From Cyrtodaria siliqua (lineage: Eukaryota > Mollusca > Bivalvia > Adapedonta > Hiatellidae): DNA of 64,000 bases. Positions 7,321 through 53,872 of the stretch are shown in pieces. The stretch spans positions 496,001 through 560,000 of the forward strand of contig JAWPHD010000094.1 in the NCBI GenBank assembly GCA_037043455.1. Direction: 5' to 3'. The position numbers and the translations under genes were made by a program. Every line of letters starts with the position of its first letter. The first letter of the stretch is position 1. The notes under the pieces are model-generated. The model was not told the origin of the DNA and ran no database searches. It worked only from the letters and a program-made list of their open reading frames with translations.

Positions 7321-7323
7321 CAC

Positions 7324-8224: not shown

Positions 8225-8225
8225 A

Positions 8226-9180
8226 AGAGCAAATTAAATATACAATGAAACGGAAAATACATAACATAAAGAGCGGTGAAGACAGGGTTACCGACTTGGA
8301 ACGGACAGTAGGCAATAAGGCCTACAGGTTAGCTTAGCTTAAATCGATTTTATATGTACATAACCTCGCTATCATCCTGTCTTCAGCTCCTACATTGACA
8401 AGATATTGTAAATAAAAGGACATGCATATACAATCTCTAACAGTAAATTCCACATCAAGAGAAATTAGCAAACGATACTCGTATAATTTATGTTGTTTTA
8501 AATAATATATAAAAAATACATATCTAAAAACACCTCAGGATGTATCCAGAATTATACTGAACAATCACAACTGTTGCAGTCAAAGATAAAACTAGGGTAC
8601 GACCAGAAAACCTAAGGGGCAAAAGTTCATGCGCCAACCTCCCCTTTCAGGGTTTCAGAAGGTGCGATCAGACAGTCCCACGAAATTGTCCGGCCATCGC
8701 ACGTAGTGACTGACTGCATATACTTTTCTGACGAATTTTCTAACTAATTTTGTAAAGTGGTAAGGAAATCCTTCAGACCACTTTAATTACACATCCACAA
8801 AATAAATGTTGTGATAGTTTTACATTCAAGCTTTTCGTTAAGTCCATTTCTCAGACACCGGAAGCCATAAAACGTTCAATGTTCGCACATGTTTACATCT
8901 GCACGACAGCAGCATATTTCTACCAAAAGTAGGTAAATATAAATGTCATTCACCTACTTTTCGCACTTCGTCAATTAACATTACATTTTAGCAATCAAGT
9001 TTCTACATTTAAAATTTCTATTAAGACATTCGCAACAGAGTACGTGTTTAGATCTAGATGGCAGCAGTGTTCTTACCAAAAGTAGGTCATACGAATGATA
9101 TTCGCCTACCTTTCGCACATTGTTAATTTAATGCTGCCTTGTTAAAGGATATACCGTGGCGAGTATTTCTGTATTTACCC
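8226..9180. other. Non-coding stretch with two similar hairpins
   Basis: Two related segments, near 8918-8970 and 9072-9120, each place ACCAAAAGTAGGT before ACCTACTTTTCGCAC or a close variant, so each can fold into a short stem-loop. The flanks are partly duplicated as well. No coding exon is seen. Confidence 0.55.
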
Positions 9181-9186
9181 ACGTAC

Positions 9187-11092
9187 ATTTAACAATGTAA
9201 GCAACTGAATGTCACATTTAACACAGTATACAACTGAATGTCACATTTAACCAAGTCTGCAATTGAATGTTACATTTAACCAAAGAATGTCACATTTAAC
9301 AACTTATGCAACTGAATGTCACATGTAACCAAGTCTGCAACTGAATGTCACATTTAACAAAGTATGCAGCTGTATGTCACATTTAACAGAGTATGTCGCA
9401 TTTAACAATGTATGCAACTGAATATTACATTTAACAAAGTATGTCGCATTTAACAAAGTATGCATCGGAACGTCACATTTAACAAAGTATGCAACTGAAT
9501 GTCAATTTAACCAAGTCTGCAACTGATGACACATTTAACCAAATATGGAACTGAATGTCACATTCAACCAAGTCTGCAATTGAATGTTACATTTAACCAA
9601 ATAATGTCACATTTAACAACTTATGCAACTGAATGTCACATGTAACCAAGTCTGCAACTGAATGTCACATTTAACAATGTATGCAACTGAATGTCACATT
9701 TAACAAAGTATGCAGCTGTATGTCACATTTAACAGAGTATGTCGCATTTAACAATGTATGCAACTGAATATTACATTTAACAAAGTATGTCGCATTTAAC
9801 AAAGTATGCATCGGAACGTCACATTTAACAAAGTATTGAACTGAATGTCAATTTAACCAAGTCTGCAACTGATGACACATATAACCAAATATGGAACTGA
9901 ATGTCACATTTAACACAGTATGCAACTGAATGTCACATTTAACCAAGTCTGCAATTGAATGTTACATTTAATCAAAGAATGTCACATTTAACAAGTTATG
10001 CAACTGAATGTCACATGTAACCAAGTCTGCAACTGAATGTCACATTTAACCAAATATGTAACTGAATGTCACATTTAACAAAGTATGCAGCTGAATGTAT
10101 CATTTAACAAAGTATGTCGAATTTAACAAAGTATGCAACTGAATGTCACATCTAACACAGTATGCAACTAAACGTCGCATTTAACAAAGTATGCAACTGG
10201 ATATTACATTTAACAAAGAAAGTCGCATTTACCAAAGTATGCAACTGAATGTCACATTTAAAAACGTATGCAACTGAATGTCACATTTAACCAAGTCTGC
10301 AACTGAATGTCACATTTAACCAAATATGGAACTGAATGTCACGTTTAACAAAGTTTGCAGCTGAATGTCACATTTAACAAAGTATGTCGAATTTAACAAA
10401 GTATGCAACTGAATGTCACATATTACACAGTATGCAACTAAACGTCATATTTAACAAAGTATGAAACTGAATATTACATTTAACAAAACATGCCCCATGT
10501 AATAACGTATGCAGCTGAATGTCACACTTAACAAAGAGTGCAACTGAATGTCACATTTAACAAAGTATGCGACTGAATGTCACACTTAACAAATAATGCA
10601 ACTGAATGTCACATTTAACAAAGAATGCAACTGAATGTCACATTTAACAAAATATGCGACTGAATGTCACATTTAACAAAGTATGCAACTGAATGTCACA
10701 TTTAACAAAGAATGCAACTGAATGTCACATTTAACAAAATATGCGACTGAATGTCACATTTAACAAAGTATGCAACTGAATGTCACACTTAACAAAGAAT
10801 GCAACTGAATGTCACATTTAACAAAGAATGGAACTGAATGTCACACTTAACAAAGAATGCAACTGAATGTCACATTTAACAAAATATGCGACTGAATGTC
10901 ACATTTAACAAAGTATGCAACTGAATGTCACACTTAACAAAGAATGCAACTGAATGTCACATTTAACAAAGAATGCAACTGAATGTCACATTTAACAAAA
11001 TATGCGACTGAATGTCACATTTAACAAAGTATGCAACTGAATGTCACATTTAACAAAGAATGCAACTGAATGTCACATTTAACATAGAATGC
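9187..11092. repeat. 29-bp satellite, about 65 units
   Basis: The unit is CAACTGAATGTCACATTTAA plus CAAAGTATG, spaced exactly 29 bp in the homogeneous part (10500-11080). It is more diverged before about 10500, where shortened units such as AGTATGTCGCATTTAACA interrupt the phase. It shares only the unit length with the array at 7324-8224. Confidence 0.93.
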
Positions 11093-11099
11093 AATTGAC

Positions 11100-12564: not shown

Positions 12565-13725
12565 GAAGGTCAGGTACATGTATCGATATCTGCCTATATA
12601 TACTTATTGTAAATGGTACGTTTATCGATATCTGCCTCTATATACTTCTTGTGAATGGTACGTGTATCGACATCTGCCTCTATATACTTATTGTGAATGG
12701 TATGTGTATCGATATCTGTCTCTATATACTTATTGTGAATGGTACGTGTATCGATATCTGCCTATATATACTTCTAGTGAATGGTACATGTATCGACATC
12801 TGCCTCTATATACTTCTTGTGAATGGTACGTGTATCGACATCTGCCTCTATATACTTATTCTGAATGGTACGTGTATCGATATCTGCCTCTATATACTTA
12901 TTGTTAATGGTACGTGTATCGATATCTGCCTATATATACTTCTAGTGAATGGTACATGTATCGACATCTGCCTCTATATACTTATTTTGAATGGTGCATG
13001 TATCGAATATCTGCCTCTATATACTTCTAGTGAATGGTGCATGTATCGATATATGCCGCTATATACTTATTGTGAATGGTACATGTATCGACATCTGCCT
13101 CTATATTCTTCTTGTAAATGGTACATGTATCGATATCTGCCGCTATACACATTAATTTGAATGGTACCTATATCGAAATCTGCCTCTATATACCTCTTGT
13201 AAATGGTACATATATCGATATCTGCCGCTATACACTTATTGTAAATGGTACATGTATCGATATCTGCCGCTATACACATTATTGTGAATGGTACATGTAT
13301 CGACATCTGCCGCAATACACTTAGTGTGAATGGTACATGTATCGGTATCTGCCTTTATACACTTATTGTGAATAGTACAAGTATCGATATCTGCCACTAT
13401 ACACTTATTGTGAATGGTAAATATATCGATATCTGCGTCTATACACTTATTGTAAATGGTACATGCATCGATATCTGCCTATATACACTTATTGTCAATA
13501 GTAAATGTATCGATATCTGCCTCTATATACTTATTGTTAATGGTACGTGTATCGATATCTGCCGCTATATACTTATTGTTAATGGTACATGTATCGATAT
13601 CTGCCGATATACTTATTGTGAATGGTACATGTATCGATATTTGCCTCTATATACTTCTTGTGAATGGTACATGTATCGATATCTGCCGCTATATACTTAT
13701 TGTGAATGGTACGTATATATCGTTG
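12565..13725. repeat. 42-bp minisatellite, about 28 units
   Basis: The unit is near TGTATCGATATCTGCCTCTA plus TATACTTATTGTGAATGGTACG, repeating every 42 bp. As 42 is a multiple of three, each frame gives its own 14-residue repeat, which explains several 60-180-codon open frames on both strands. No start, signal peptide or splice evidence supports coding. Confidence 0.92.
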
Positions 13726-16871: not shown

Positions 16872-18470
16872 CGATGCATACCTACTGGCTACTAGTTCGG
16901 TACTGGAGCCACACACATAGCAATGCATACCTGCTGGCTACTAGTTCGGTGATGGTGCCACACATAGCGATATAGCGATGCATACCTACTGGCTACTCGT
17001 TCGGTATTGGAGCCACACATAGCGATGCATACCTACTGGCTACTAGTTCGGTACTGGAGCCACACATAGCGATGTATACCTACTGGCTACTAGTTCGGTG
17101 CTCGAGCCACACATAGCGATGCATACCTACTGGCTACTAGTTCGGTACTGGAGCCACACATAGCGATGCATACCTACTGGCTACTAGTTCGGTGCTGGAG
17201 CCACACATAGCGATGCATACCTACTGGCTACTAGTTCGGTGCTGGAGCCACACATAGCGATGCATACCTACTGGCTACTAGTTCGGTGCTGGAGTCACAC
17301 ATAGCGATGCATACCTACTGGCTACTAGTTCGGTACTGGAGCCACACATAGCGATGCATACCTACTGGCTACTAGTTCGGTGCTGGAGCCACACATAGCG
17401 ATGCATACCTACTGGCTACTAGTTCGGTACTGGAGCCACACATAGCGATGCATACCTACTGGCAACTAGTTCGGTACTGGAGCCGCACAGAGCGATGCAT
17501 ACCTACTGGCTACTAGTTCGGTGCTGGTGGAGCCACACATAGCGATGCATACCTACTGGCTACTAGTTCGGTACTGGAGCAACACATAGAGATGCATACC
17601 TACTGGCTACTAGTTCGGTACTGGAGCCACACATATAGATGCATACCTACTGGCTACTAGTTCGGTACTGGAACCACACATAGCGATGCATACCTACTGG
17701 CTACTAGTTCGGTACAGGAGCCACACATAGCGATGCATACCTACTGGCTACTAGTTCGGTACTGGAGTCACACATAGCGATGCATACCTACTGGCTACTA
17801 GTTCGGTACTGGAGCCACACAGAGCGATGCATACCTACTGGCTACTAGTTCGGTACTGGAGCAACACATAGAGATGCATACCTACTGGCTACTAGTTCGG
17901 TACTGGAGCCACACATATAGATGCATACCTACTGGCTACTAGTTCGGTACTGGAACCACACATAGCGATGCATACCTACTGGCTACTAGTTCGGTACTGG
18001 AGCCACACATAGCGATGCATACCTACTGGCTACTAGTTCGGTACTGGAGCCACACATAGCGATGCATACCTATTGGCTACTAGTTCGGTACTGGAGTCAC
18101 ACATAGCGATGCATACCTACTGGCTACTAGTTCGGTATTGGAGCCAGACATAGCGATGCATACCTACTGGCTACTAGTTCGGTACTGGAACCACACATAG
18201 CGATGCATACCTACTGGCTACTAGTTCGGTACTGGAGTCACACATAGCGATGCATACCTACTGGCTACTAGTTCGGTATTGGAGCCAGACATAGCGATGC
18301 ATACCTACTGGCTACTAGTTCGGTACTGGAATCACACATAGAGATGCATACCTACTGGCTACTAGTTCGGTACTGGAGCCACACATAGCGATGCATACCT
18401 ACTGGCTACTAGTTCGGTGCTGGAGCCACAGATAGCGATGAGTATAAACTAACTATTAATTCGGTATTGG
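16872..18470. repeat. 47-bp minisatellite, about 34 units
   Basis: The unit is GCGATGCATACCTACTGGCT, ACTAGTTCGGTACTGGAGCC, ACACATA, repeating every 47 bp with high identity. Higher-order patterns are visible: blocks of consecutive variants (GGAGCAACACATAGAG, ACACATATAGATG) occur twice, near 17560-17680 and 17850-17960. This points to recent duplication of multi-unit blocks. It abuts a Gypsy fragment on the right. Confidence 0.94.
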
Positions 18471-18483
18471 AGCCACACATCAA

Positions 18484-19012
18484 GGAAACACACCGCCGAG
18501 TTTCAGCTGCTCTGTTGAGCGAAATCAAGGAACACCTACAGCAAATGATGGGTGTTGGTGCTTTTAGAGTATCCAAGTGTCCATGATCTTCAAACGCAGT
18601 GATTGTCCGAACGTCAGGCGTTTATGTTTAGGTTTACGGAAGTTAAAATAGAGCACAAGGAAAGACGCTTATGCTATTCCGTCGATGAAGACACACTGAA
18701 CCTTTTGGCAGTATTTTTTTTTAAAACTAGTCCTCAGATCTGGCTATTGACAAGTAGAAATTTGAGAGCAGAACAATGCAAAGCTAGCATACCAAGTAGG
18801 AAGTGGAAAGAGCTTCTATGAATGTATTGTGTGTCTTCTGTATGAATGTATTGTGTGTCTTCTGTATGAATGTATTGTGTGTCTTCTGGACTCTGCAACG
18901 CCCCAGCCACTTTTCAGCGCCTCATGTAGTGTAAGAATGGGCGACGACTTATTTATCTTGACAACACACGAGTCTTCTTAAGTTCAGACCTCGAAAGCCA
19001 CATTGAAAATTA
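18484..19012 (+). pseudogene. Ty3/Gypsy reverse-transcriptase remnant
   Basis: Short stretches in changing frames match the Gypsy reverse-transcriptase core. Near 18487 there is HRRVSAALLSEIKEHL, near 18880 GLCNAPATFQRLM, and near 18955 YLDN followed by SSDLESHIEN. YLDN stands where the catalytic YLDD is expected. Stops and frame changes are frequent. A 24-bp segment ending GTGTGTCTTCTG is tandemly triplicated at about 18820-18890 inside the remnant. It is a dead LTR-retrotransposon piece, with no LTR seen. Confidence 0.7.
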
Positions 19013-19171
19013 AAGCATTGAAAATTAAAGCCACATTGAAAATTTGGATGCCACCCAGTATAATTGGAGAGCTTCTGTAATGGCGAAGTGCATCACGATG
19101 TTCCTGCAGATTGGCAGGTTTATAGCGTACAGGTATATTCATGTAGTAGATAATGAAGTCTGAACCGAATG

Positions 19172-19482
19172 TTGTTTAACGGATCATCAACACAGTATAG
19201 GTTATTTAGAGCCTCCCCAGAGAGAAAGGAAGGATACATAGGAATCCGGGAACCGTGCCCTACTATTATTATCGAATAGATTCCTATGATTCTTTAACGT
19301 GCTCGGAGGATAGACCGATACCCGGGACCGCCCGGTTTACGTCCCCATCCGACGGACGAGGCTAAGGGAAAGTGTCTTGCCCAAGAACACATCGATGAAA
19401 CTCAGTGGCACCACGGAGGATTGAACCCTGGGCCTCCGGTTACAAATCCGCCGCGCTACCGACTGCGCCACGCCAGCACTCG
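19172..19482 (-). mobile_element. tRNA-derived SINE, near full length
   Basis: On the minus strand it begins near 19480 with GGCGTGGCGCAGTCGGTAGC (A box) and has GGTTCAATCCTCC (B box). The body has GGGCAAGACACTTTCCCTTAG, then GTTAAAGAATCATAGGAATC, and the tail is GATGATCCGTTAAACAACATT. It is the most complete of four copies in the window. The tRNA-like part lacks a good acceptor stem and leads into the SINE body, so it should not be called as a tRNA. Confidence 0.87.
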
Positions 19483-19977
19483 ATAATGAAATCTGTGACA
19501 ACACATTGATACACAGTGCATTTGTAGTTGGAGGGGAGAGTGAGGATGGCAATGACACTTTTTAATTGGCATTATTTGTGTTGCGGGTATTACTCACCAA
19601 AGGTCAATGAAGTTGTCTGTAAATGCAATTATATATGTTTACAGTTACCCACAAGAATGAAACATATATAATCAGAATAAATACTGTGTGTATTTCTGGG
19701 CATTTAAGTACCAGCTATATATATATATATTTTTTATTCTTCTAATTTCATTTTGAAAATTAAGATTTATTTTGTTTAACTTAAACACTGACCTTTGCAA
19801 CTGACGTAGGACCTTAAGAGTGCTTACTGTTTTATTTTGTATAGTACACCGTTTTAAAAATGACCTTTAGCCTTGTCATTTGACCGTTAGATGTCATTGA
19901 CAAAATTGGCAACATTGTTTTTCTATTATTCCTTATGGCCTAACTTTAAAATGATATATAGTGCTTCCTTCCTGCAG

Positions 19978-19987
19978 GATTTTCCCA
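19978..19987. promoter_or_regulatory. Rel/NF-kappaB-like decamer
   Basis: GGATTTTCCC lies directly upstream of a TATA-like box and about 170 bp before the ATG of the peptide gene. It is close to Rel-family sites but is not a perfect match. Such sites commonly drive inducible immune genes. The link here rests on position and motif only. Confidence 0.35.
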
Positions 19988-20158: not shown

Positions 20159-23100
20159 ATGAGGACTCTGATTTTGTTCGGGCTGCTGTGTGTGATTCTG
20201 GCGGTATTCGTGTCGGCAACATGTAAGTTACTTAGATCTTAAAACTTTTACAATAAATTAAACAATTTTAGTTATTTATAAATAAAAGATAATTTATCTC
20301 TTTATTCGCCATATAGTGTTTTTTTTTTTAATATTTAAGTTTGTCACGCAATACCTTTTTTTAATTAATATTAAAATAAAATAAAACATTGTTTACATTT
20401 TTCCGCCATCCGTTTTTCGATTTGGTGTTTACGTGTAGCCTGTGTAATTTTGTATTTAAACTTGCTATGACATTGTTTTGAACGGCTTACAATATTGAAC
20501 ATCTCATGGTAAAAGCATACGCTCTGGGCAATCAAAGGAAAGTAACTATATCTTAAGCCTTCATTTAATAAAAATATAACTTCAATAATTGGTTTAATGT
20601 TTTTATGTCCCCCAGCGGCCTTTTTTGTCACTGACCGTTCCAAGGCGGTAGCCCTATTGTCAACCCTTATGTGTTTGTGATGTCTTATTTGGTATTTTAT
20701 TAATCTTTAAAGTTGTTCATTGCTTCTGTGTGTGTTCGTGTATGTGGTCGTCCTTGAATGCTACTTTTCCTGTTCGAGTTTTATATCTATATGTATGCTT
20801 TTTAAAAATTGAGTATTGTGAGTTTAATCTAAAAACTCTTTACACTTAGCTTAGAATATATTGTATTGGGTTTTGCTTGAAGAAAACGGTACAAAGGTTT
20901 CAAATATCAAGAACTGAAACGTTAAACATTGGCCAAAATACTGATATCTGTTACTCCCACCACACCTTGGCATATGGCAACACAAATTCTATTTACCCAA
21001 GAAGAATTGAGAGTATATTAAACAGGTGCGTAAACACATTGCAAAATCGTAATATTCATAGTCACATTTCTTATGGTTCGCGTATGTAAACTTAATTATG
21101 TAAATTGTTTGGAGTTATATTTCTATGACGAATAGTAAGCGCTTCGTTGCAAATTGGATGAAAAAATAATGTTCGGGTTGTACTTAAATTGAAATGAGTT
21201 GGATTTATTTTTTTAAAACTCTGTGAAAGTAAATTCAATTCTTGCATATCGGATAAGGTTATCCGTGTTTTACATGGGTAATGAATAACCTGATCTTACA
21301 CATGAAGGAAGATAAAAGTCACACGTTGATATCAACAATGACAATGTCAAATGGTAATGCGATTTATCTAGTACTTTCCGAGATTAGCCCTCCCAAATTC
21401 TTGGAAACGAAATAAATATATGACCATGTGCATTTTGGGAGGGCTAATCTCAAAAAAATACGGAATGAACCAAATTGCATTTTAGGGCGAAAGAAAGAGC
21501 TCAAATTGTAAGGGTATGTGCGCGTTATTTGAACAAAAATCGTTAAATATTAAGGAAGTTAGGAAGAAATTCCCAAACTGAATCGAGCAGTTTGTTTACT
21601 TTTTTTTTGCCGTGAAACCGATCAAAAAGTCACGTAGTTTCGCCACCCTGATGTAGCATTCAAAGAAAGCAGCCGAACAAAATTCGAACACGCGTGTCAA
21701 AAATCCTGCAATCTGATTGGTTGACGTTCATACGTTTGCGACTGTTAAATAGTGCATCTCGTCGGAAAATCGGTCATATGACGTTCAATCGTCAAAAACG
21801 TGACGTCATTACGTTTTATTTCAATGCATGTGCGAGTAGACTAAAACTGTCAAAAACAATGAAATGTGTTAAAAACGGGTTAACCGGTATCTATTGACGG
21901 GTTAGCCGGTATCTATTGCAGGTTAACCGGTATCTATTGACGGGTTAACCGGTATCTATTGATGGGCTAACCGGTATCTATTGACGAGTTAGCCGACAGG
22001 TATCTATTGACGGGTTAACCGGTATCTATTGACGGGTTAGCCGGTATCTATTGACGGGTTAACCGGTATCTATTGAAATGTTGACGGTATATCAGTCGTT
22101 TAACGATATGAGTTCTCACACAACACACATGGTTGCCAGTTCGGATACTGAATTAGAACGCCCATATTTGGCCAGTGACAAAAAGGTCACGCGGGGTTTA
22201 AACCGGTTCCTAGATTGACCAAAATAATTATAATCTTACCTGTACTGAAATTTGATTCCATGTCAAAGTTTGTGGTTGAATGTTATACTGTATAGTGTAA
22301 TCATTCGAAAAATCCGCCACGTTTCCGAAATGTTCAAATGTACAAGATTGACTGGAAACAAAACATTTCGGAAACGGGGCGAATTATGCGAATATACTAT
22401 GAATCATTCACCAACAAATAAAAGAAAATCAAATAAAAAAAAGGAATCAAGTACTGCACATTCCCTTCTCTTTGCGCCATATGTCATAAACATGCGCACA
22501 GTAACAAAAAAGTAAAATATTACTTCTAATCGGGAAGATTTGAATGGTAAAGTATATCTTAAGATTTGAACTTTAAAGAAAAGCTTACTTCTAATCGGGA
22601 AGATTTGAACGGCAAAGTAAAGCTTACTTCTAATCGGGACGATTACAACGGTAAAGAAAAGCTTACTTCAAATAGGTACGATTTAAACGGTAAAGAAAAG
22701 CTTACTTCTAATCGGGACGATTTTAATAGTTTTCAAGCAACTTGATTCCCCCACTCTGTATCAAATATCTTGGTTTCAGATACTGCTGACAAGAAGGCGG
22801 ACATCGAAGAGGTGATAAGAGAACTCCAACAGGCTTATAATGAAAACATCGACGACGGTGATATAGATGAAGCGTTAATGGTAAATAATATTCTAATATG
22901 TATTTGCTAGTTTATATTAACACATTGTAGCATGGTCGGTGATATTTCCTTCGATGAATGCAGAGCATTAACTCATTTAATTTAGGGTACTTAAAGGGGC
23001 GTGGCTACACCGTACTACAACTACCGGATATCTAATACTTAGAGTTCGGTCACTATGACGTCACAGTGTTACTAAGTACACCATGCTACAAAAAAGATAG

Positions 23101-24430
23101 AGTCTGTCTCAGCTCGTTGGTTATTTAAATTTATTACTTAATGAATACCTCGTGGATAATCTACAACAATCTCTGGATTGTTTGCACATTCTATATCTAA
23201 AGCAGGGACAAGACCATGTGTTTTTCTCTTACAAAATATCTACGTACGGCGTACATGGTAGCGTTTGTCTTAGCCATATTTAAGAGAAACAGAGAAAAGT
23301 GGTGTATGATACAACCTATATAACTTGTAATATAAAGAAAGCGTTTTTGAGGAATTCCGATTTATGTCTAACCCTACTCTGTGTTGTATATTCTTTATGT
23401 ATGACCCCACTCTGTGTTGTATTTTTTTTATGTTTGACCCACTCTGTTATGTTTGACCGCACTCTGTTATGGTTGAAACCACTCTGTTATATTTGACCCC
23501 ATTCTGTTTTGTATACTTTTCATGTTTTGACACTACTCTGTTATATTTGACCACACTCTGTTATGGTTTCCCCCGCTCTGTTATGTTGACCCCACACTGT
23601 TATATTTGACTCCACTCTGTATGTTTGACACCCACTCTGTTTTGTATACTCTTTATGTTTTGAACTCACTCTGTTTTGTAGACTTTTTATGTATGACTGT
23701 ATACTTTTTAACCGACTCTGTTTTGTATTTTATTTGTGTTTGACACCTCTCTTTTTTGTGTACTTTTGTTTTAACTTACTTTGTTTTGTAATACCTTCTA
23801 ATGAGTTTAACAACTAAATGTACGTACATTTTTTATATCCTTAGAAACGTGACTCTTGTGAAGACCTCTGTGGGGACGATACAGACTGCATGCAAACCTG
23901 CGAGGATCAGGAACCGTCGTAAGTAAATTGCATATTTCGCATAGTAAAAGCTGTGTTGTGATTCCAAAGGGGCGGTGGTCTGTTCAATCCCCGTCCCGGT
24001 CACACCAACACGACTTCATTAAAGTGGCGCTAGAGGTACTCATTTGAATTCACCATATATGGTGAGTGGAATCGTAAACGAAATAAGTCGGAATAGCAGG
24101 CATGCATACTGTGAGTTTCATTATTAATATAATAAGGAGTCATTTTTAAGATAATTCATTATATTTGGACCCTCTGGAATAGAAAATATCACAAGTTTCT
24201 CTGCATACATGATTTAGTTCTCTATTCATGAATACGAAGATGCATAGACGTTTTATCCATGAATGTGTCTGGCATATATTTACTATTGTTATTGTAGATA
24301 CCCTGGCAAAAAAGCTTGGCTTCCAAGGGTTCCGTGGAGAGCTCCAAGGATTCCGTGGAGAGCTCCAAGGATTCCGTGGAGAGCTCCAAGGAATCCGTGG
24401 AGAGCTCCAAGATGGGGAAAGAAGAAGTAA
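20159..24430 (+). CDS. Secreted Pro/Trp/Arg-repeat peptide precursor, copy 1
   Basis: Four exons (20159-20222, 22780-22880, 23845-23918, 24298-24430) join in frame through GT-AG introns (phases 1, 0, 2) into about 123 residues. Exon 1 is a hydrophobic signal peptide (MRTLILFGLLCVILAVFVSA). Exon 2 is an acidic helical pro-region. Exon 3 starts with Lys-Arg and carries CX3C-X5-CX3C. Exon 4 has a Lys-Lys site, then 34 residues built on a PWRAPRI heptapeptide (nine Arg, nine Pro, six Trp, no acid), then Gly-Lys-Lys-Lys, a typical amidation and trimming signal. The plan matches antimicrobial peptide precursors; a neuropeptide is the alternative. Exon 4 comes from a 21-bp tandem repeat. AATAAA is at 24536. 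I do not recognise a named family. Confidence 0.8.
21380..21462. repeat. Small foldback in intron 1
   Basis: GAGATTAGCCCTCCCAAA near 21383 is mirrored by TTTGGGAGGGCTAATCTC near 21436, giving a stem of about 17 bp with a loop near 35 nt. In the duplicated copy at about 34999-35055 the second arm is mostly deleted. Confidence 0.7.
21880..22085. repeat. 22-bp minisatellite in intron 1
   Basis: The unit CGGGTTAACCGGTATCTATT plus GA is repeated about nine times with small changes. The duplicated copy (near 35248-35270) has a single unit, so the expansion or contraction happened after the segmental duplication. Confidence 0.9.
22305..22397. repeat. Foldback in intron 1, kept in both gene copies
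   Basis: CCGTTTCCGAAATG-type arms face each other: CGTTTCCGAAATGTT near 22320 and AACATTTCGGAAACG near 22362, flanked by further partly paired bases (ATTCG and CGAAT). The second gene copy has the same structure at about 51866-51946. It looks like an old MITE in the ancestral intron. Confidence 0.65.
22520..22735. repeat. Degenerate tandem repeat before exon 2
   Basis: CTTACTTCTAATCGGGAAGA followed by TTTGAACGGTAAAGAAAAG repeats about five times at roughly 40-bp spacing, just upstream of exon 2. The duplicated gene carries a longer version at about 52060-52335. Confidence 0.85.
23360..23780. repeat. T-rich degenerate repeat in intron 2
   Basis: Irregular copies of CACTCTGTTATGTTTGACCC with TTTTGTATACTCTTTATGTT variants fill most of intron 2. 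The same array with its own indels fills the matching intron of the second copy (52745-53190), confirming common descent of the two genes. Confidence 0.85.
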
Positions 24431-24651: not shown

Positions 24652-27600
24652 AGTGTATACATTGTAACATTACATGTGTAGAAATCCATCATGTATACAT
24701 TGTTGCTATATATGTGTAGAATACCATCGTGTATACATCGTAACATTACATCTGTAAAATACCATCGTGTATACATTGTTAATATGCATGTGTAGAATAC
24801 CATCGTGTATACATTGTAACATACCATGTGTAGAATACCATCGTGTATACATTGTAACTCTACATGTGTAGAATACCATCGTGTATACATTGTTACATAC
24901 CATGTGTAGAATACCATCGTGAATACATTGTTACTATACATGTGTAGAATACCATCGGGTATACATTGTAACTCTACATGTTTAAAATACCATCGTGTAT
25001 ACATTGTTACATACCATGTGTAGAATACCATCGTGAATACATTGTTACTATACATGTGTAGAATACCATCGTGTATACATTGTAACATACCATGTGTAGA
25101 ATACCATCGGGTATACATTGTAACATTACATGTGAAGAATACCGTCGTGTATACATTGTTACTATACATGTGTAGAATACCATCGGGTATACATTGTTAC
25201 TATATATCTGTAGAATACCATCGTGTATACATTGTACCATACCATCTGTAGAATACCATCGTGTATACATTGTTACTATACATGTGTAGAATACCATCGT
25301 GTATACACTGTAACATTACATGTGTAGAATACCATCGTGTATACATTGTTACTATATATGTGTAGAATACCATTGTGTATACATTGTAACATACCATGTG
25401 TAGAATACCATCGGGTATACATTGTAACATTACATGTGTAGAATACCATCGTGTATACATTGTAACATTACATGTCTAAAATACCATCGTGTATACATTG
25501 TAACATACCATCTACAGAATACCATCGTGTATACATTGTAACATACCATGTGTAGAATGCCATCGTGTATACATTGTAACATTACATGTGTAGAATACCA
25601 TCGTGTATACATTGTAACTCTACATGTGTAGAATACCATTGTGTATACATTGTTACTATATATGTGTAGAATACCATCGTGTATACATTGTAACATACCA
25701 TGTGTAGAATACCATCGGGTATACATTGTAACATTACATCTGTAGAATACCATCGTGTATACATTGTAACATTACAAGTCTGAAATACCATCGTGTATAC
25801 ATTGTAACATACCATGTGTAGAATACCATCGTGTATACATTGTAACATACCATGTGTAGAATGCCATCGTGTATACATTGTAACATTACATGTCTAAAAT
25901 ACCATCGTGTATACATTGTAACGTTACATGTGTAGAATACCATCGTGTATACATTGTAACATTACATGTGTAGAATACCATCATGTATATATTGTTACTA
26001 TACACGTGTAGAATACCATCGTGTATACATTGTAACATTACATGTGTAGAATACCATCATGTATACATTGTTACTATACACGTGTAGAATACCATCGTGT
26101 ATACATTGCAACGTTACATGTGTAGAATACCATCGTGTAAACATTGTTACTATATATGTGTAGAATACCATCGTGTATACATTGTAACATACCATGTGTA
26201 GAATATCATCGGGTATACATTGTAACATTACATGTGTAGAATACCATCGTGTATACATTGTAATTCTACAGTGTAGAATACCATCGTGTATACATTGTTA
26301 CTATATATGTGTAGAATACCATCGTGTATACATTGTAACATACCTTGTGTAGAATGCCATCGTGTATACATTGTAACATTACATGTCTAAAATACCATCG
26401 TGTATACATTGTAACGTTACATGTGTAGAATACCATCGAGTATACATTGTTACTATAAACGTGTAGAATATCATCGTGTATACATTGTAACATTACATGT
26501 GTAGAATACCATCATGTATACATTGTTACTATACACGTGTAGAATACCATCGTGTATACATTGTAACGTTACATGTGTAGAATACCATCGTGTATACATT
26601 GTAACATTACATGTGTCGAATACCATCGTGTATACATTGTTACTATACACGTGTAGAATATCATCGTGTAAACATTGTTACTATACAGGTGTATAATACC
26701 ATCGTGTATACATTGTTACTATAAAGGGGTAGAATACCATCGTGAATACTTTGTTACTATACATGTGTAGAATACCATCGTGTATACATTGTTACTATAC
26801 ATGTGTAGAATATCATCGTGTATACATTTTTACTATACACGTGTAGAATACCATCGTTTATACATTGTAACTATACACGTGTAGAATACCATCGTGTATA
26901 CATTGTAACATACCATGTGTAGAATATCATCATGTATACATTGTAACATTGCATGTGTTGAATACCATCGTGTATACATTGTTACTTTACATGTGTAGAA
27001 TACCATCGTGTATACATTGTAACATTGCATGTGTAGAATACCTTCGTGTATACATTTTTACTATACACGTGTAGAATACCATCGTTTATACATTGTTACT
27101 ATACACGTGTAGAATACCATCGTTTATACATTGGAACATACCATGTGTAGAATACCATCATGTATACATTGTAACATTACATGTGTTGAATACCATCGTG
27201 TATACATTTTTATTTTACATGTGTAGAATACCATCGTGTATACATTGTAACATTGCATGTGTAGAATACCGTCGTGTATACATTGTTACTATACACGTGT
27301 AGAATACCATCGTGTATACATTGTAACATACCATGTGTAGAATACCATCGTGTATACATTGTAACGCTACATGTGTAGAATACTATCGTGTATACATTGT
27401 TACATGCCATGTGCAGAATACCATCGTGAATACATTGTTACTATACATGTGTAGAATACCATCGGGTATACATTGTAACATTACATGTGTAGAATACCGT
27501 CGTGTATACATTGTTACTATACATGTGTAGAATACCATCGGGTATACATTGTAACATTACATGTGTAGAATACCATCGTGTATACATTGTAACTCTACAT

Positions 27601-30058
27601 GAGTAGAATACTATTGTGTATACATTGTTACTATACATGTGTAGAATACCATCGTGTATACACTGTAACATTACATGTGTAGAATACCATCGTGTATACA
27701 TTGTAACTCTACATGTGTAGAATATCGATGTGTATACATTGTTACTATATATGTGTAGAATACCATCGTGTATACATTGTAACATACCATGTGTAGAATA
27801 CCATCGTGTATACATTGTTACATACCATGTGTAGAATACCATCGTGAATACATTGTTACTATACATGTGTAGAATACCATCGTGTATACATTGTTACTAT
27901 ATATGTGTAGAATACCATCGTGTATACATTGTAACATACCATGTGTAGAATACCATCGTGTATACATTGTAACATTACATGTCTAAAATACCATCGTGTA
28001 TACATTGTAACGTTACATATGTAGAATACCATCGTGTATACATTGTAACATTACATGTGTAGAACACCATCGGGTATACATTGTTACTATACACGTGTAG
28101 AATACCATCGTGTATACATTGTAACGTTACATGTGTAGAATACCATCATGTATACATTGTTACTATACACGTGTAGAATACCATCGTGTATACATTGTTA
28201 CTATACATGTGTAGAATACCATCGTGTATACATTGTAACATTACATGTGTAGAATACCATCGTGTATACATTGTTACTATACACGTGTAGAATATCATCG
28301 TGTAAACATTGTTACTGTACATGTGTAGAATACCATCGTGTATACATTGTTACTATACACGTGTATAATACCATCGTGTATACTTTGTTACTATACATGT
28401 GTAGAATACCATTGTGTATACATTGTTACTATACATGTGTAGAATACCATCGTGTATACATTTTTTACTATACACGTGTAGAATATCATCGTTTATACAT
28501 TGTTACTATACACGTGTAGAATACCATCGTGTATACATTGTAACATACCATGTGTAGAATACCATTATATATACATTGTAACATTACATGTGTTGAATAC
28601 CATCGTGTATACATTGTTACTTTACATGTGTAGAATACCATCGTGTATACATTGTAACATTGCATGTGTAGAATACCGTCGTGTATACATTGTTACTATA
28701 CATGTGTAGAATACCATCGTGTATACATTGTTACTATACACGTGTAGAATACCATCGTTTATACATTGGAACATACCATGTGTAGAATACCATCATGTAT
28801 ACCTTGTTGCTATACACGTGTAAAATACCATCGTGTATACATTGTTACTATACATCTATACACGTGTAGAATACCATCGTGTATACATTGTTACTATACA
28901 CGTGTAGAATACAATCGTGTATACATTGTTGCTATACACGTGTAGAATACCATCGTGTATACATTGTTGCTATACAAGTGTAGAATACCATCGTGTATAC
29001 ATTGTTGCTATATACGTGTAAAATACCATCGTGTATACATTGTCACTATACACGTGTAGAATACCATCGTGTATACATTGTTACTATACACGTGTAGAAT
29101 ACCATCATGTATACATTGTAACATACCATGTGTAGAATACCATCGTGTATAAATTTTTACTATACACGTGTAGAATACCATTGTGTATACATTGTTACTA
29201 TACACGTGTAGAATACCATGGTGTATACATTGTTACTATACACGTGTAGAATACCATCGTGTATACATTGTTACTATACACGTGTAGAATACCATCATGT
29301 ATACATTGTAACATACCACGTGTAGAATACCATCGTGTATACATGGTTACTATACACGTGTAGAATACCATTGTGTATACATTGTTACTATACACGTGTA
29401 GAATACCATCGTGTATACATTGTTACTATACACGTGTGGAATACCATCGTGTATACGTTGTAACATTACATGTGTAGAATACCATCGTTTATCATTGTTA
29501 CTATACACGTGTAGAATACCATCGTGTATACATTGTAACATTACATGTGTAAAATACCATCATGTATACATTGTAACATTACATGTGTAGAATACCATCG
29601 TGTATACATTGTTACTATACACGTGTAGAATACCATCGTGTGTGCATTGTAACATACCATGTGTAGAATACCATGGTGTATATATTGTTACTATACATGT
29701 ATAGAATACCATCGTGTATACATTGTAACAGTACATGTGTAGAATACTATCGTGTATATATTGTTACTATACACGTGTAGAATACCATCGTGTGTGCATT
29801 GTAACATACCATGTGTAGAATACCATCGTGTATACATTGTATCATTACATGTGTAGAATACCATCTTCTATATATTGTAACTTTACTGTGTAGAATACCA
29901 TCGTGTCTACTGTGTAACATTACATGTGTAGAATACCATCGTGAATATATTGTAACTTTACTGTGTAGAATACCATCGTGTAAACATTGTAAGTCTAAAT
30001 GTGTAGAATACCATCGTGTATACGTTCTAACTACATACGTGTAGAATACCATCGTGTA
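24652..30058. repeat. 38-bp satellite, about 140 units
   Basis: The unit is TAGAATACCATCGTGTATAC plus ATTGTTACTATACATGTG, with exact 38-bp spacing in most of the array. Two main variants alternate in the second half (GTTACTATACACGTG and GTAACATTACATGTG). It starts about 110 bp after the poly(A) signal of peptide gene 1. Open frames on both strands inside the array are by-products of the unit. The same satellite follows peptide gene 2 at 54078-55475. Confidence 0.96.
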
Positions 30059-30217
30059 TAGCCCTTTCCAGAAACTAGGTTAGCTCCCTTGAAAATTATC
30101 TTCCCGTAACACTTCTGCGCATGCGCCAAACGGTCCCTCACTTCCGGAGACTTCCTTTGTTTATCAATTTATCAACAGTTATCAGTTATTCTCAAGTACG
30201 ATTACGATTTGGTGACA

Positions 30218-33200
30218 ATGTTAGCGGTTAACCAGAAGAAAATAACTTTGAAGTATTGCTGTATATGTAAAGGAGTTCATCGAGGCAAAGTAGTGGACAG
30301 CAGAACCGTTTCTCTTCACAGATTTCCGCAAAATAAACAAGAGGGCCATGATGGCCCTATATCGCTCACCTGAGTAAATTTGAACCATTATTGCTAAGAT
30401 GGTCCTAAAGCGATCAACTGAGTACTGGCACATTATCGAACTTCTTCGAAATCTTATGGTCATATACAATCTGTGCAAGTTTGGTTAAGATTGTTCAAGA
30501 AATGTGGGCTCTGTTGTGTATAACAACATTGATATAGACAGTTTAAGACCCTGACAAAGTTTGGTAAAGATCAAATACAAAACGAAGGTGCTAGAGAGTA
30601 ACACCTTGGGCAGAGCCAAATGTGACCCTAGGGCTACATGTAATATATGAGAGCTGTGTGCCTTGTGGTTTTAGAGAAGAAGATTTTTTAAGTTTTTCCC
30701 TATACAAGTCTATGTAAAACTTGTGACCCCTGGGACAGGGCCAAATGTGAGTCCAGGGTCACCATTTGAACAAACTTGGTAGAGGACCATAAGCTTATAG
30801 CAAATGCAAAATATTAAACCTCTGGCTCTTGCAGTTTCAGAGAAAAAGATTTTTTAAGTTTTACCCTATGCATGTCTATGTAAAACATGTGACTCTTGGG
30901 GCGGGGCCAAATGTGACCCGAGGGTCACCATTTGAACAAACTTAGTCGAGGATCATAAGCTGATGCTACATGTAATACATGAGACCTCTGTGCCCTGTGA
31001 TTTCAGAGAAGAAGATTTGTTAAAGTTTTTTCCTATATGAAAAACATGCAAAATCTCAATATACAAACTTTGGACCCCCGGGGCATGGCCATTTTTAACC
31101 CCGGGGCCTTCATTTGAACAAACTTGATAGTCTAGGCGTTGGCGATAATTTTAAAAGAAAAACTGTTGAAATCTGTCCAGCTGTTCTTGAGAAGAAGATT
31201 TTTTAAGGTTTCAATTATATATGGTAATGGTGGCCATCTTGGATGTCGCGCTGACCTAATTTTAACAAATCTAAAAAGCATTCATCTAAGGATCATCCAC
31301 GTGAAGTTTGGTCAAAATTGGCCACGCGTTTTCTGAGGAGAAGTCGTTTGAAGCAAAAGTTAACGACGGACGACGACGGACGACGGACGAAGAGTGATCC
31401 TAATAGCTCACCTTTGAGCCTTCGGCTCAGGTGAGCTAAAAACTGAAACGTGTGTGGATCCAACGGTGTCGAACTGTGATGAGGACTTTCAAGTGGAATG
31501 AACACAAATTGCTTTGTAGTGAACATTTTGTTGAATTCCGAGGCCCTACGATTCTGCACACACTGTCGTCGATCTTCTCTACCGAAAACGGAGCAAGAAA
31601 GGTGTTCCCAAACACGGTACGTTTATGAACATGTACCCCACCCACATAGTTTAGTATAGTTTAGTAAGTTAGTAACACTTAATCACAGCTTTACTGTTGG
31701 CCTATGCCAGTTTGTTAATTGCTATTTTTACACTGATAAAATAACTTGATTAGAATTATGGTGTTTATATTACAATTTTGAAGGTCTTTTAATGCTTTGA
31801 AGTTTGATGTGTGTAGGAGAAAAACATCTTTATTACCACTAAAAATAAAATGCCTACACGGACAACCTGACCAAAAAATATCTGACTGTGTTTGACCTCA
31901 TTCACTATCCATTGCCAAAATATTGGGTCGTATGATAAAACTATATAGGAAGCAAGTTGTTTATTTTAACTTGAGATATACTTTTCAATCGTTATATTCC
32001 ATTTCAGGATTTGAATGAAAACGAACAAATACTGGATCTGAAGATGAAGACCCAGTCGAAATGTACACAGCGACCCCTATCAACATGGCAATGTATACTG
32101 TGGATGGCGAGCTTACTACAACAGATAGTGGACCCAGCTTTGTACAAAGTGTGGCACATTCAGCCCTAGACGTTTCCCTTCTTCTTCACGACTACTGTTC
32201 TGACCAGTCCCAACAGAAGATTTGAAAAGGTATAGACTTAATGACCAACTCTGTTTGTCACCATTAAATAACCGGGGTTTTCTGTAACCTAAACAATCTG
32301 TGTTTTATGCTCACTACAGTGTTTTAAAAAAATAACATTGTCTGTTTCTTTCCATACAATTACTTATTTTTCATGTTGTACATTCACACGCATAATATCG
32401 TTTTAGTTTATATACATGCCCGTGAACTATGCACGTCAATAAAAAGTATTAAAATAGGAACAATGTTTATGATAAAAATCAGAGTATAATTTTTTATTTC
32501 AGAAATATAGCTACTCAGACGTACCCGGACATGTGTTCCCAGGCGACAGAATCAAAGGGAGAATCAACAGTAAAGCAGTTTGCTAGTATAGGTACACAGA
32601 CAAGTGTCGAAACGAATGATTTTAATGAACAAACAAACCTGCCCCAACTTGTGTACGAAAATGTCATGAACACGGATGCTAAGATAATGTTCTAAACTGG
32701 AATTCCGGACAAAAATACATGTGATGCACTGTTTGACGAAATCAAGGATGATGCCCATGAAAAAACATCTAGTAAAGCATCAAATTAGACCAGCACTTCT
32801 GGTGGTAGACCTAGAGCTTTGAGAACTATTGATGATTTTTTTTTATGATTCTAATGCGACTAAGGCTTGGACTCTTGGCCGAGGATTTAGCAGACCGATT
32901 CTGCATTTCACCATCGGCATGCGGTCATATTCTAAACAAATGGATAGACTATTTAGACACCAGGCTTGACTTTTTGATTATGTGGCCTGCAATGGAGGAG
33001 GTGAAATACAATATGCCAGGGTCTTTCGGGAGAAAATTCCAGATACACGGGTGATAATCGATTGCACTGAAATTCGAACATAGACACCAAGTTCGCTTCA
33101 ATACAAATCGCTAATGTATAGTGACTACAAATCGCATATGACTTACAAGTCATTAGTGGGTATAAGTCCATATGGACATGTGACATTTATCTCTGACCTT

Positions 33201-33530
33201 TGGTGTGGCTCAATAAGTGATAAAGAAATAACAAAAAGGAGTGGACTATTAGAACTTTGTGAAGAAGGAGATGCCATTATGGCTGATAAAGGATTTACAA
33301 TTTCAGACTTGACAACACCAAAAGGAATTAAGTTAATCATCCCACCATTTAAAAAGAAAAATGTACAATTTTCAAAAAGGGACGTTTAAAGTACGCGGGA
33401 AATCGCAAATGCAAGAATACACGTTGAAAGACAGATGGAACGAATTAAGAACTTTAGAATTGTGCAGGGCGTTATGCAAATAACTAAGTCCAAACGAGTC
33501 TCTAAAGTGTGGAAATTGTGCGCAAAATGA
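30218..33530 (+). pseudogene. Decayed THAP plus DDE (DDE_Tnp_4-like) transposase gene
   Basis: Exon 1 starts at ATG 30218 and encodes the first half of a THAP zinc finger (CCICKGVHRGK, VSLHRFPQNK). After a 1.1-kb inserted repeat the frame resumes near 31440 with the second half (KRVWIQRC, LLCSEHF) up to a donor near 31616. Further exons start near 32008 and 32503. From about 32845 come a transposase helix-turn-helix (LRLGLLAEDLADRF) and, from 33054, a DDE superfamily endonuclease region (VIIDCTEIR, MADKGF, NARIHVERQMERIKNFRI). Stops and frame shifts break it at several points. The THAP-HTH-DDE order suits ISL2EU/IS4EU-type DNA transposons. Terminal repeats were not found. Confidence 0.7.
30338..31438. 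mobile_element. Dispersed 1.1-kb repeat inserted in the THAP exon
   Basis: It starts CAAGAGGGCCATGATGGCCC and ends CCTTCGGCTCAGGTGAGCTA. CGCTCACCTGAG near the left end pairs with CTCAGGTGAGC at the right end, giving short inverted termini. Inside, a module of roughly 180 bp (AGAAGATTTTTTAAGTTTT, then CCAAATGTGACC and CATTTGAACAAACTTGGT) recurs three to four times, and a GACGGACGAC run lies near the right end. It is non-coding and splits the THAP domain in two. Confidence 0.75.
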
Positions 33531-34480: not shown

Positions 34481-34580
34481 GGATCTTGATTCAAATTTAC
34501 TAAACAAATTTCCCAGTTTAAACAAAACCGAGTTGCTATTTATCAAACTTTCGAAATGAGACTAGTCCATCATACATGGG
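34009..34580. repeat. About 171-184-bp tandem repeat, 3.3 units
   Basis: Each unit begins GCTATTTATCAAACTTTCGA, passes AATGAGTCTAGTCCATCATA and ends GATTCAAATTTACTAAACAA..CAAAACCGAGTT. Units start near 34009, 34181, 34352 and 34536 (partial). The third holds a (TA)n run at about 34441-34480. The duplicated intron segment starts directly after the last partial unit. Confidence 0.88.
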
Positions 34581-34582
34581 AA

Positions 34583-35309
34583 ACGTTAAATATTGGCCAA
34601 AATACTGATATCTTTTACTCCCAAATGGCAACACAAATTATATTTACCCAAGAAGAATTGAGAGTATATTAAACACATTGCAAAATCGTAATATTCATAT
34701 TCACATTTCTTATGGTTCGCGTATGTGAACTTAATTATGTAAATTGTTTGGAGTTATTTTCTATGACGAATAGTAAACGCTTTGTTGCAAATAATATTCG
34801 GGTTGTACTTAAATTGAAATGAGTTGGATTTCTTTTTGTAAAACTCTGTGAAAGTAAATTCAATATCGGATAAGGTTATCCGTGTTTTACATGGCTAATG
34901 AATAACCTGATCTTACACATGCAGGAAGATAAAAGTCACACGTTGATATCAACAATGACAATGTCAAATGGTAATGTAATTTATCTAATACTTTCCGAGA
35001 TTAGCCCTCCCAAATTCTTTGAAACGAAATAAATATATGACCAGGGCAAATCTCAAATATATACTGAATGAACCAAATTGCCTTTTACGGCGAGAGAAAG
35101 AGCTCACATTGTAAGGGTGTGTGCATAACTCGTCGCAAATTCGGTCATGTGACGTTCAATCGTCAAAAACGTGACGTCATTACTTTTTATTTCAATGCAT
35201 GTGTGAGTAGACTAAAACTGTAAAAAACAATGAAATGTGTTAAAAACGGGTTAACCGGTATCTATTGAAATGTTGACGTTTGTGACGGTATATCAGTCGT
35301 TTAACGATC
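34583..35309 (+). other. Duplicated intron-1 segment of peptide gene, copy 2
   Basis: This closely matches 20918-22108, for example TTGGCCAAAATACTGATATC, GAAGAATTGAGAGTATATTA, GATATCAACAATGACAATGT and TGACGGTATATCAGTCGTTT, apart from indels and the reduced 22-bp minisatellite. The match begins inside intron 1, downstream of exon 1, so no copy of the signal-peptide exon is included. It resumes on the far side of the Polinton near 51706. Confidence 0.88.
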
Positions 35310-35666: not shown

Positions 35667-35901
35667 AGTAGTATAGAAACTGAGAGTATAGGCGCAATTT
35701 CCTCCCTCGCGACAAACAATCAATAGTTTTCAAGTTGTCTCCTGTTGGCTTTAACACACAAACATTTGCAAACGTCAAACAAATGACGATGCCATGCTTG
35801 CTGCCAGACCCCACACAACTACACAAAACTGCTTGATTACCCTTCGCTTACCAAAACCCTCAGTTTCTATTTTTTTTTTGTAAATGACTGAAACATTTAC
35901 A
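35667..35901 (+). repeat. Polinton terminal inverted repeat, left
   Basis: It begins AGTAGTATAGAAACTGAGAG and pairs with 50011-50257 in reverse complement. Differences include an 11-bp insertion in the right copy and a few substitutions. The polymerase frame ends inside this repeat at 35775. Confidence 0.9.
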
Positions 35902-39525: not shown

Positions 39526-39574
39526 TATATAATATTACATGAGATTTTATTTTTAAGCCTATATTTAATTTAAT

Positions 39575-40316: not shown

Positions 40317-40356
40317 GATTACATTATTTTAAAATATAATTCTGTAGTATAATAAT

Positions 40357-40920: not shown

Positions 40921-40937
40921 ACAGATGCTCAACTAGC

Positions 40938-41368
40938 TTAATTTCCATTAAGCTTGAACCTTTTCATATACGTTTCCAGAGGTTCTGTAAAGTTATCATT
41001 CTTTTGAATTTCTAATATTTTATTAAAGACAATCCTAATTATCTCCTCATCATTTTCTAGTCCTGTGGTTCTTTGGACATATGATAGAAGTTGCTTGAAA
41101 CTTCTATGATGTGTTTTTAACAAAGTTTTTTTTCTGCTATTCTTGTTTTACTTGCTAAAACAGCAACTACTTCAGGAACTGCACCAACTGCAGCCACGAA
41201 AACAGGAATTGCCGGAACCAATGCCAATACGGCAGTACAACCAATTATCCCACTAACAATTTGTAGGGTTGTGTTTATGATACCGAACAATTTATAGCTA
41301 CGTCTGTATGCAGCCACAAGTCGTGCCAAATGATTAATTAATTCTTCTTTGTTAGTTATTTGTGCCAT
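40938..41368 (-). pseudogene. Small Polinton membrane-associated protein, frame-split
   Basis: The first part (41368-41117, 83 residues) has a helical N-terminus and a long hydrophobic segment of about 40 residues (IIGCTAVLALVPAIPVFVAA and following), likely one hairpin or two membrane passes. The second part (41123-40938) overlaps it by 7 bp in another frame and reads as a charged helical tail. Together they suggest a single protein of about 140 residues broken near the AAAAAAA run at 41118-41128. TCTA (TAGA at 41382-41385 on the plus strand) lies 13 nt before the ATG. Function unknown. Confidence 0.55.
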
Positions 41369-41381
41369 GTATAATTACAGT

Positions 41382-52393: not shown

Positions 52394-53872
52394 ATACTGC
52401 TGACAAGACGGACATCGAAGAGGTGATAAGAGAACTCCAACAGGCTTATAATGAAAACATCGACGACGGTGATATAGATGAAGCGTTAATGGTAATTAAT
52501 TGTGCTAGTTTATATTAACGCATTAATGAATACCTCGTGGATAATCTACTGTTTGCACATTCTATATCTAGAACAGGGACAAGAGCATGTGTTTTTCTCT
52601 TACAAAATATCCACTTACGGCATACATTGTAGCGTTTATCTTAACCATATTTAAGAGAAAAAGAGAAAAGTGGTGTATGATACAATGATATGATATATAA
52701 AATGTAATATAAAGAAAGCGTTCATCATGAGGAATTCCGATTTATGTCTAACCCTACTCTGTGTTGTATATTCTTTATGTATGCCCCCACTCTGTTTTGT
52801 ATTTGTTTATGTTTAACCCACTCTGTTCTGTTTGACCGCACTTTGTTATGGTTGAAACCACTCTGTTATGTTTGACCCCACACTGTTATATTTGACCCCA
52901 CTCTGTTTTGTATACTCTTCATGTTTTTGACCCCACTCTGTTATGTTTGACCACACTCTGTTATGGTTTTCCCCGCTCTGTTATGTTGATTCCACACTGT
53001 TATATTTGACTCCACTCTGTATGTTTGACACCCACTCTGTTTTGTATACTCTTTATGTTTTGAACTCTCTCTGTTTTGTATAGTTTTTATGTATGACTGT
53101 ATACTTTTTAACCGACTCTGTTTTGTATTTTATTTGTGTTTGACACCTCTCTGTTTTGTGTACTTTTGTTTTGCCTTACTTTCTTTTGTAATACCTTCTA
53201 ATGAGTTTAACAACAAAATGTACGTACAGTTTTTATATCCTTAGAAACGTGACTCTTGTGAAGACATCTGCGAGGGCGATACAGACTGCATGAACAACTG
53301 CGAGGATCAGGAATCATCGTAAGTAAATTGCATATTTCGCATAGTAAAAGCTGTGTTGTGATTCCAAAGGGGAGGTGGTCTGTTCAATCCCCGTCCCGGT
53401 CACACCAACGACTTCATTAAAGTGGCGCTAGAGCTACTCATTTGAACTCACCATATATGGTGAGTGGAATCGTAAATGAAAACCGTATATTGACACTAGT
53501 GGATAAGTCGGAATAGCAGGCATGCATACTGTGAGGTTCATTATTAATATAATAAGAAGCCATTTTTAAGATAATTCATTATGTTTAGACCCTCTGGAAT
53601 AGAAAATATCACAAGTTTCTCTGCATACATGATTTAGTGCATACGAAGATGCATAGAGGTTTTATCCATGAATGTGTCTGGCATATATTTACTATTGTCA
53701 TTGTAGATACCCTGACAAAAAAGCGTGGGGTTCGTGGAGAGCTCCAAGGTTTCCAAGGTTTCCAAGGATTCCGGTGAGAGTACCAAGAGTACCAATAAGG
53801 TTTCCAAGGATTCCGGTGAGAGTACCAAGAGTACCAATAAGGATTCCGTGGAGGAGTCGGGGAAAGAAGTAA
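52394..53872 (+). CDS. Pro/Arg-rich peptide precursor, copy 2, exon 1 not found
   Basis: Exons 52394-52491, 53245-53318 and 53707-53872 keep the splice sites and phases of copy 1. The acidic pro-region has one residue fewer. Exon 3 keeps Lys-Arg and CX3C-X5-CX3C. Exon 4 begins YPDKKAWGSWRAP and then becomes a Pro/Arg-rich tail of 46 residues (13 Arg, 11 Pro, three Trp, no acid) with a 14-residue unit RFPRIPVRVPRVPI repeated twice, ending in Gly-Lys-Lys. Regular Pro-Arg spacing is like Bac5/Bac7-type and insect proline-rich antimicrobial peptides. No signal-peptide exon lies nearby; the duplicated segment begins inside intron 1. It is either 5'-truncated or spliced from exon 1 at 20159. AATAAA is at 53962. 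Confidence 0.72.
52745..53190. repeat. T-rich degenerate repeat in intron 2, copy 2
   Basis: Counterpart of 23360-23780, with the same order of CACTCTGTTATGTTTGACC variants and a few indels. Confidence 0.85.

Follow-up and report, generated by a model that had tools for sequence, protein, structure and literature searches.

Vertebrate cathelicidins are encoded by four exons, the first for the signal peptide, the second and third for a pro part with four cysteines and the fourth for a variable mature peptide; in the portion of the published account available, these mature peptides are highly diverse in kind and range from 12 to 100 residues, and the first exon of pig cathelicidin includes part of the cathelin part (PMC3487008). 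In bivalves, the nearest case to emerge from our literature topic searches, as far as the accessible text goes, is that of the myticalins of Mytilus, which together with the modiocalins of Modiolus are described in the available parts of two papers as having a central mature peptide and a C-terminal acidic part, encoded by three exons of which the first is non-coding, with one phase-1 intron in the coding part (PMC5577615, PMC12294457). Here we describe gene A, which lies in a 64,000-nucleotide stretch of the genome of the bivalve Cyrtodaria siliqua (contig JAWPHD010000094.1, positions 496,001 to 560,000, forward strand; "the window"), together with its copies elsewhere in the same genome. We propose, with a probability of roughly 0.75 judged from sequence, that these genes make up a multigene family, specific to its lineage, whose secreted products are precursors of antimicrobial peptides that are linear, cationic and in most cases amidated at the C terminus.

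Gene A and its copies at twelve loci

The four exons of gene A (Table 1) join into a 372-nucleotide frame of 123 codons plus TAA, with GT-AG borders at all three introns and consistent phases; our re-reading thus agrees with a first-pass annotation that had joined the same exons from the letters of the window alone. The signal peptide encoded by exon 1 ends in VSA and has a hydropathy of 3.34 over residues 4-18. The annotation's account of the tail, AWLPRVPWRAPRIPWRAPRIPWRAPRNPWRAPRW, also holds: it has 34 residues, among them nine Arg, nine Pro and six Trp and neither Asp nor Glu, it is encoded by a 21-base-pair (bp) tandem repeat, and a poly(A) signal lies 3' of exon 4. The annotation had been silent on the C-terminal GKKK, which is an amidation-type signal, on the MKR that ends the pro-segment and on the P(G/D)KK that precedes the tail. 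Because the 21-bp repeat leaves all three frames open, the open frame of gene A exon 4 is by itself little proof; in exon 4 of two other copies, L016 and paralogue B, the chosen frame is the sole one without an internal stop.

The case for the four-exon model beyond chance comes from the genome at large (2.88 Gb in 26948 contigs; the window belongs to contig C94). A six-frame search with the gene A product gave at least 24 exon matches, and exons 2, 3 and 4 were found together at 12 loci, counts that are lower bounds and in which some loci may be alleles. These loci are gene A (winA), another set of exons 2-4 within the window itself, in the same orientation at 52394-53872 and unmentioned in the first-pass annotation (paralogue B, or winB), and ten further loci labelled L009-L018. 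Exon 1 was also found at 11 of the 12, paralogue B being without it and L009 having it farther upstream, at C94:86752. All 12 are free of internal stops, end in TAA and keep exon lengths constant modulo 3, and the GT-AG junctions recur at the other family loci, so that the same exons, junctions and frame are seen repeatedly, with all four exons at 11 loci. Gene A, paralogue B and L009 are paralogues and not alleles because all three lie on one contig, C94; the other loci may include alleles.

A genome search with the 3' untranslated region (3'UTR) gave at least 13 places, namely the 12 loci and contig C5001. The latter (L027, around 9139-9250) is a deletion copy in which the repeat DNA of exon 4 directly adjoins exon 2; the stretch examined yielded no match to exon 1 or to exon 3, and the fused frame, read by eye, is open. 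There is also a solitary copy of the promoter, exon 1 and the start of intron 1 on contig C1111 (L026, 176527-176589, minus strand). Around this exon the stretch matches L017 at 95%, and it holds no exon match besides exon 1.

The predicted products share the plan that the first-pass annotation had proposed for gene A, that is, a secreted chain with an acidic pro part and a cationic tail, at all 12 loci. An acidic segment with the pattern CX3CX5CX3C, its cysteines spaced 3-5-3, is present in every copy, MKR ends the pro-segment in 10 of 12, a dibasic site of the form P(D/G)KK or PGKR precedes the core in 11 of 12, and GKK(K) followed by a stop closes the chain in 10 of 12. Net charge runs from -11 to -15 in the pro part (after the signal and up to the core) and from +4 to +26 in the core plus end. 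Acidic residues number 0 among 397 core residues versus 247 among 767 pro residues, where the Glu in the final EKKK of L018 is counted with the end and not with the core. A correlation of -0.66 between the charges of pro part and core carries no weight, the 12 loci not being independent.

Sequence variation sits between the dibasic site and the Gly-Lys-Lys. In gene A and L009 this part consists of RAPRIPW heptads (PWRAPRI in another register), while paralogue B and L016 have 42-bp repeats encoding RVPRVPV RIPRIPL and similar units, in tails of 46 and 89 residues; both kinds conform to R-x-P-R-x-P-x, with x mainly hydrophobic. The first-pass annotation's suggestion that slippage by 21-bp units can alter the length of the tail is plausible, given that some copies have the two-unit repeat and that tail lengths of 34, 46 and 89 residues occur. 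The other eight loci have non-repetitive cores of 18-34 residues: Ala/Arg-rich ones of 28-34 residues at L010-L012, cores of 18 residues such as ILSGMAAAWAAKKAAGWL at L013-L015, and other sequences at L017 and L018, the latter with two cysteines. Proline content is 24-26% in the four repeat-bearing members and 0-11% in these eight.

Where the copies differ

Mean pairwise identity is 0.952 in the upstream region, 0.921 in exon 1, and 0.907 and 0.894 at the two ends of intron 1; across the 12 loci it is 0.955 in exon 2, 0.941 in intron 2, 0.904 in exon 3 and 0.945 in intron 3, and it falls to 0.640 in exon 4 as against 0.957 in the 3'UTR. Gap fractions are 0.26 in intron 2, 0.20 in intron 3 and 0.10 and 0.28 at the ends of intron 1, compared with zero in exons 1 and 3, 0.04 in exon 2 and 0.37 in exon 4. 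Therefore, exons 1-3 have substitutions about as frequently as noncoding DNA, yet their gaps are few and preserve the frame. All 19 distinct exon gaps in the multiple alignments have lengths divisible by three, whereas in introns 2-3 and the 3'UTR this holds for 18 of 63 (p = 9e-9). The ratio of nonsynonymous to synonymous differences (pN/pS) is 0.71 for exon 1 (signal), 0.45 for exon 2 (pro) and 0.89 for exon 3 (cysteine segment), values that lead us to reject strong purifying selection as a general claim for exons 1-3.

In the near-identical pair of gene A and L009, differences fall at 8 of 308 positions in exons 2-4 and at 8 of 1541 in introns 2-3 plus the 3'UTR (p = 0.002). Exon 1 was left out of this comparison because its noncoding surroundings differ as well, by 7-9%. 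An excess of replacements between the two is not significant (pN/pS 0.87, p = 0.72). Between any two of L013-L015, whose exon 4 is equal in length, that exon shows 2-10 replacement changes and none that is silent. A tree built from noncoding parts joins gene A with L009 (support 100) and paralogue B with L016 (80), in agreement with their tails. It also joins L015 with L011 (87), though exon 4 of L015 is of the L013/L014 kind, and this placement suggests that exon 4 may have been exchanged between copies.

Relation to described precursors and competing explanations

The family is built like the cathelicidins. As in the available text on them, the four exons are ordered signal, pro, pro and mature peptide, and at the level of count the four cysteines of the pro part are matched at all 12 loci. 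The first-pass annotation had seen no more than a loose analogy with cathelicidins. In gene plan the resemblance proves closer, to judge from the part of the account at hand (PMC3487008), although the family lacks a cathelin domain. Membership is not supported, in that a Pfam scan of 11 precursors contained no cathelin (cystatin-like) model. Moreover, the pro part has about 60 residues here versus 99-114 in the cathelicidin descriptions accessible, the cysteines are spaced 3-5-3 within a short segment, most loci have dibasic sites and Gly-Lys-Lys ends, and the cathelicidins are vertebrate whereas this family is from a bivalve.

The myticalins and modiocalins resemble the family, as far as their available descriptions go, in being bivalve, multigene and endowed with one hypervariable linear cationic part, in some cases rich in Pro and Arg and often with Gly before a dibasic site. 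Unlike them, the family has its acidic part N-terminal and its cationic part at the chain end at 12 of 12 loci, and its coding sequence is spread over four exons at 11 of 12, with perhaps an additional non-coding exon at the 5' end; a four-Cys segment is unmentioned in the portions of those descriptions consulted. By the order of parts and the exon plan set out there, the family is not myticalin. Proline-rich antimicrobial peptides (Bac7, PR-39, apidaecins, Cg-Prp) contain 14-49% proline according to the accessible text of one source (PMC11678341), a range that includes the Arg-rich, acid-free tails of gene A, L009, paralogue B and L016. The PRP motifs present in some of those peptides occur in 0 of 12 precursors here, the heptads are fixed, and just 4 of 12 members are Pro-rich.

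The first-pass annotation knew of no named family with this exact plan, and our searches agree. A protein homology search with 21 candidates gave none at E up to 1, and an alignment-query search that scored 7995 candidates gave no relative at E up to 1; both covered predicted proteins, among which a gene split over four short exons could be missed. The Pfam scan, run on 11 full precursors, gave no match at E 0.001 or better (12 families at E up to 1, best E 0.0047), and sequence searches of the PDB gave nothing convincing. A literal search of 5.39 million open papers for six sequence pieces found none of them, figures, supplements, preprints and most subscription papers being outside its scope.

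Taking these observations together, we infer that the family is transcribed and that its products are cleaved, amidated and able to kill microbes. The signal peptide of exon 1 would bring the chain into the secretory path, where the acidic pro-segment of exon 2 and the acidic four-Cys segment of exon 3 would neutralise the cationic end and prevent it from doing harm. A proprotein convertase would cleave on the C-terminal side of both MKR and the dibasic P(D/G)KK, the final lysines would be removed by a carboxypeptidase and the exposed Gly would be converted to an amide; the freed peptide, in the case of gene A AWLPRVPWRAPRIPWRAPRIPWRAPRNPWRAPRW-NH2, would then attack microbes. Exon 4 would diversify through point changes and in-frame gain or loss of the 21-bp unit coding for R-x-P-R-x-P-x. 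Because the PRP motif is absent, our guess is that the Arg/Pro/Trp tails would act first on membranes, by analogy with the myticalins, for which the part of the source available reports such action (PMC11678341).

Several observations weigh against the proposal. L017 and L018 have neither MKR nor the final GKK, and L018 also has no dibasic site before its core. The PRP motif missing from all 12 precursors is typical of many ribosome-targeting peptides. An amphipathic helix is unsupported for the non-repetitive cores (shuffle fractions 0.12-0.71), and the low fractions of the repeat tails in that test (0.015-0.067) may merely reflect periodicity. In a pairwise count just 75% of the indels in exon 4 have a length divisible by three (noncoding 15-27%), and the pN/pS values of exons 1 and 3 indicate weak purifying selection there.

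A signal peptide, dibasic sites and amidation also mark neuropeptide precursors, and the Gly-Lys-Lys ends would fit a family of neuropeptide or hormone precursors. We consider this unlikely, given that a receptor ligand is expected to be the conserved part, whereas here the single core per precursor is the least conserved (exon 4 identity 0.64), with lengths from 18 to 89 residues and unrelated compositions. Pro-rich tandem repeats of changing length recall structural or adhesive secreted proteins of byssus, shell matrix or mucus. Such a role is a little harder to credit: eight of the 12 loci keep the precursor plan unchanged with short cores and no repeat tail, and no core contains an acidic residue. 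Decaying or non-expressed copies from segmental duplication could owe their open frames to youth, since their noncoding DNA is about 94-96% identical, and the missing exon 1 of paralogue B, the deletion copy on C5001 and the exon-1 fragment on C1111 are in line with decay. This is improbable in view of 12 loci without a stop and of frame-breaking gaps that number 45 of 63 in the equally old introns and 3'UTR versus 0 of 19 in exons. Least probable is a toxin or reproductive-recognition family in arms-race evolution, for although cone-snail conotoxin and frog dermaseptin-type precursors likewise join a constant signal and acidic pro part to a hypervariable mature end, and the exon excess between gene A and L009 would suit it, the cores are uniformly cationic and acid-free with Trp/Arg/Pro or Ala/Arg make-up, the layout of four exons with a four-Cys segment differs, and neither a conotoxin family nor a signal/pro model of either precursor type is among the Pfam matches at E up to 1.

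Thus, we retain the antimicrobial precursor family as our preferred explanation and consider its cathelicidin-like gene plan to have probably been reached independently. A fuller version, to which we give an even chance, is that a system like that of the cathelicidins arose independently in a bivalve lineage, with a four-exon gene, a constant four-Cys pro part and an interchangeable last exon, in which chain changes and repeat slippage between two processing sites produce very different amidated antimicrobial peptides, from R-x-P-R-x-P-x repeats to short Ala/Trp/Arg peptides. In such a system paralogue B, with intact exons 2-4, might be spliced from gene A exon 1, which lies about 32 kb upstream in the same orientation. 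If true, a plan of constant pro exons with a free last exon has originated on two or more occasions, and this would hint at a general solution for the safe production of diverse cationic peptides. The family is a source of new amidated Pro/Arg/Trp repeat peptides for assay, and its tails of 34, 46 and 89 residues offer a natural series on repeat number versus activity.

Paralogue B and the surroundings of gene A

Table 1. Positions in the window of gene A, paralogue B and associated features
Feature	Positions	Strand	Remarks
Gene A exon 1, coding part	20159..20222	+	signal peptide MRTLILFGLLCVILAVFVSA, then one base of the following codon; found at 11 of 12 loci
Gene A exon 2	22780..22880	+	acidic pro-segment as far as LM of ...ALMKR
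Gene A exon 3	23845..23918	+	KR, then acidic four-Cys segment DSCEDLCGDDTDCMQTCEDQEP
Gene A exon 4	24298..24430	+	YPGKK, cationic tail, GKKK, stop
21-bp tandem repeat coding for the gene A heptads	24322..24411	+	4.3 copies, 97% matches
Gene A poly(A) signal AATAAA	24536..24541	+	second AATAAA at 24609
Remnant of paralogue B intron 1	34580..35268	+	matches gene A 20916-21521 and 21752-21897
Paralogue B exon 2	52394..52491	+
Paralogue B exon 3	53245..53318	+
Paralogue B exon 4	53707..53872	+	tail ...WRAPRFPRFPRIPVRVPRVPIRFPRIPVRVPRVPIRIPWRSRGKK, then stop

Paralogue B encodes a different Arg/Pro tail, WRAPRFPRFPRIPVRVPRVPIRFPRIPVRVPRVPIRIPWRSR, in the same frame as gene A. No exon 1 was found within the window upstream of its intron 1 remnant. 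A large DNA transposon of the Polinton/Maverick type (35775-50020) lies between the two halves of this intron; it has a Pox_A32-like ATPase at 42571, a phospholipase-like frame at 48567 and an integrase core at 49015, its polymerase and capsid frames being recognised only by eye. A 38-bp minisatellite is found 3' of both copies, at 24653-30060 (142 units) and 54081-55471 (37 units). About 180 bases 5' of the gene A start codon, GGATTTTCCC (19977-19986) resembles, by eye, an NF-kappaB-type site.

Other long minisatellites occupy 7321-8227 (unit of 29 bp), 9185-11098 (58), 12573-13712 (42), 16972-18480 (47) and 58866-59862 (38). A DDE_Tnp_4 transposase fragment is present at 33084-33386, and 62425-63345 holds a 306-codon frame with Ser/Gln/Pro-rich stretches and no Pfam match at E 0.001.

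Outside the window, a 25.4-kb contig with COX1 at 18611-19948 (C22325, carrying L023-L025) closes into a circle of 21,125 bases through a 4311-base overlap of its ends. Its large frames, which we take to encode mitochondrial proteins, lie on a single strand; two frames are cox2-like and several others are extra, a situation known from bivalves whose mitochondria are sex-linked. The circle is suggestive, though no proof, of a heterodont bivalve: in the available part of one source, coding on one strand is typical of marine bivalves, and the nad4-trnH-..-nad3 order of the circle resembles a block of heterodont clams (PMC3285693).

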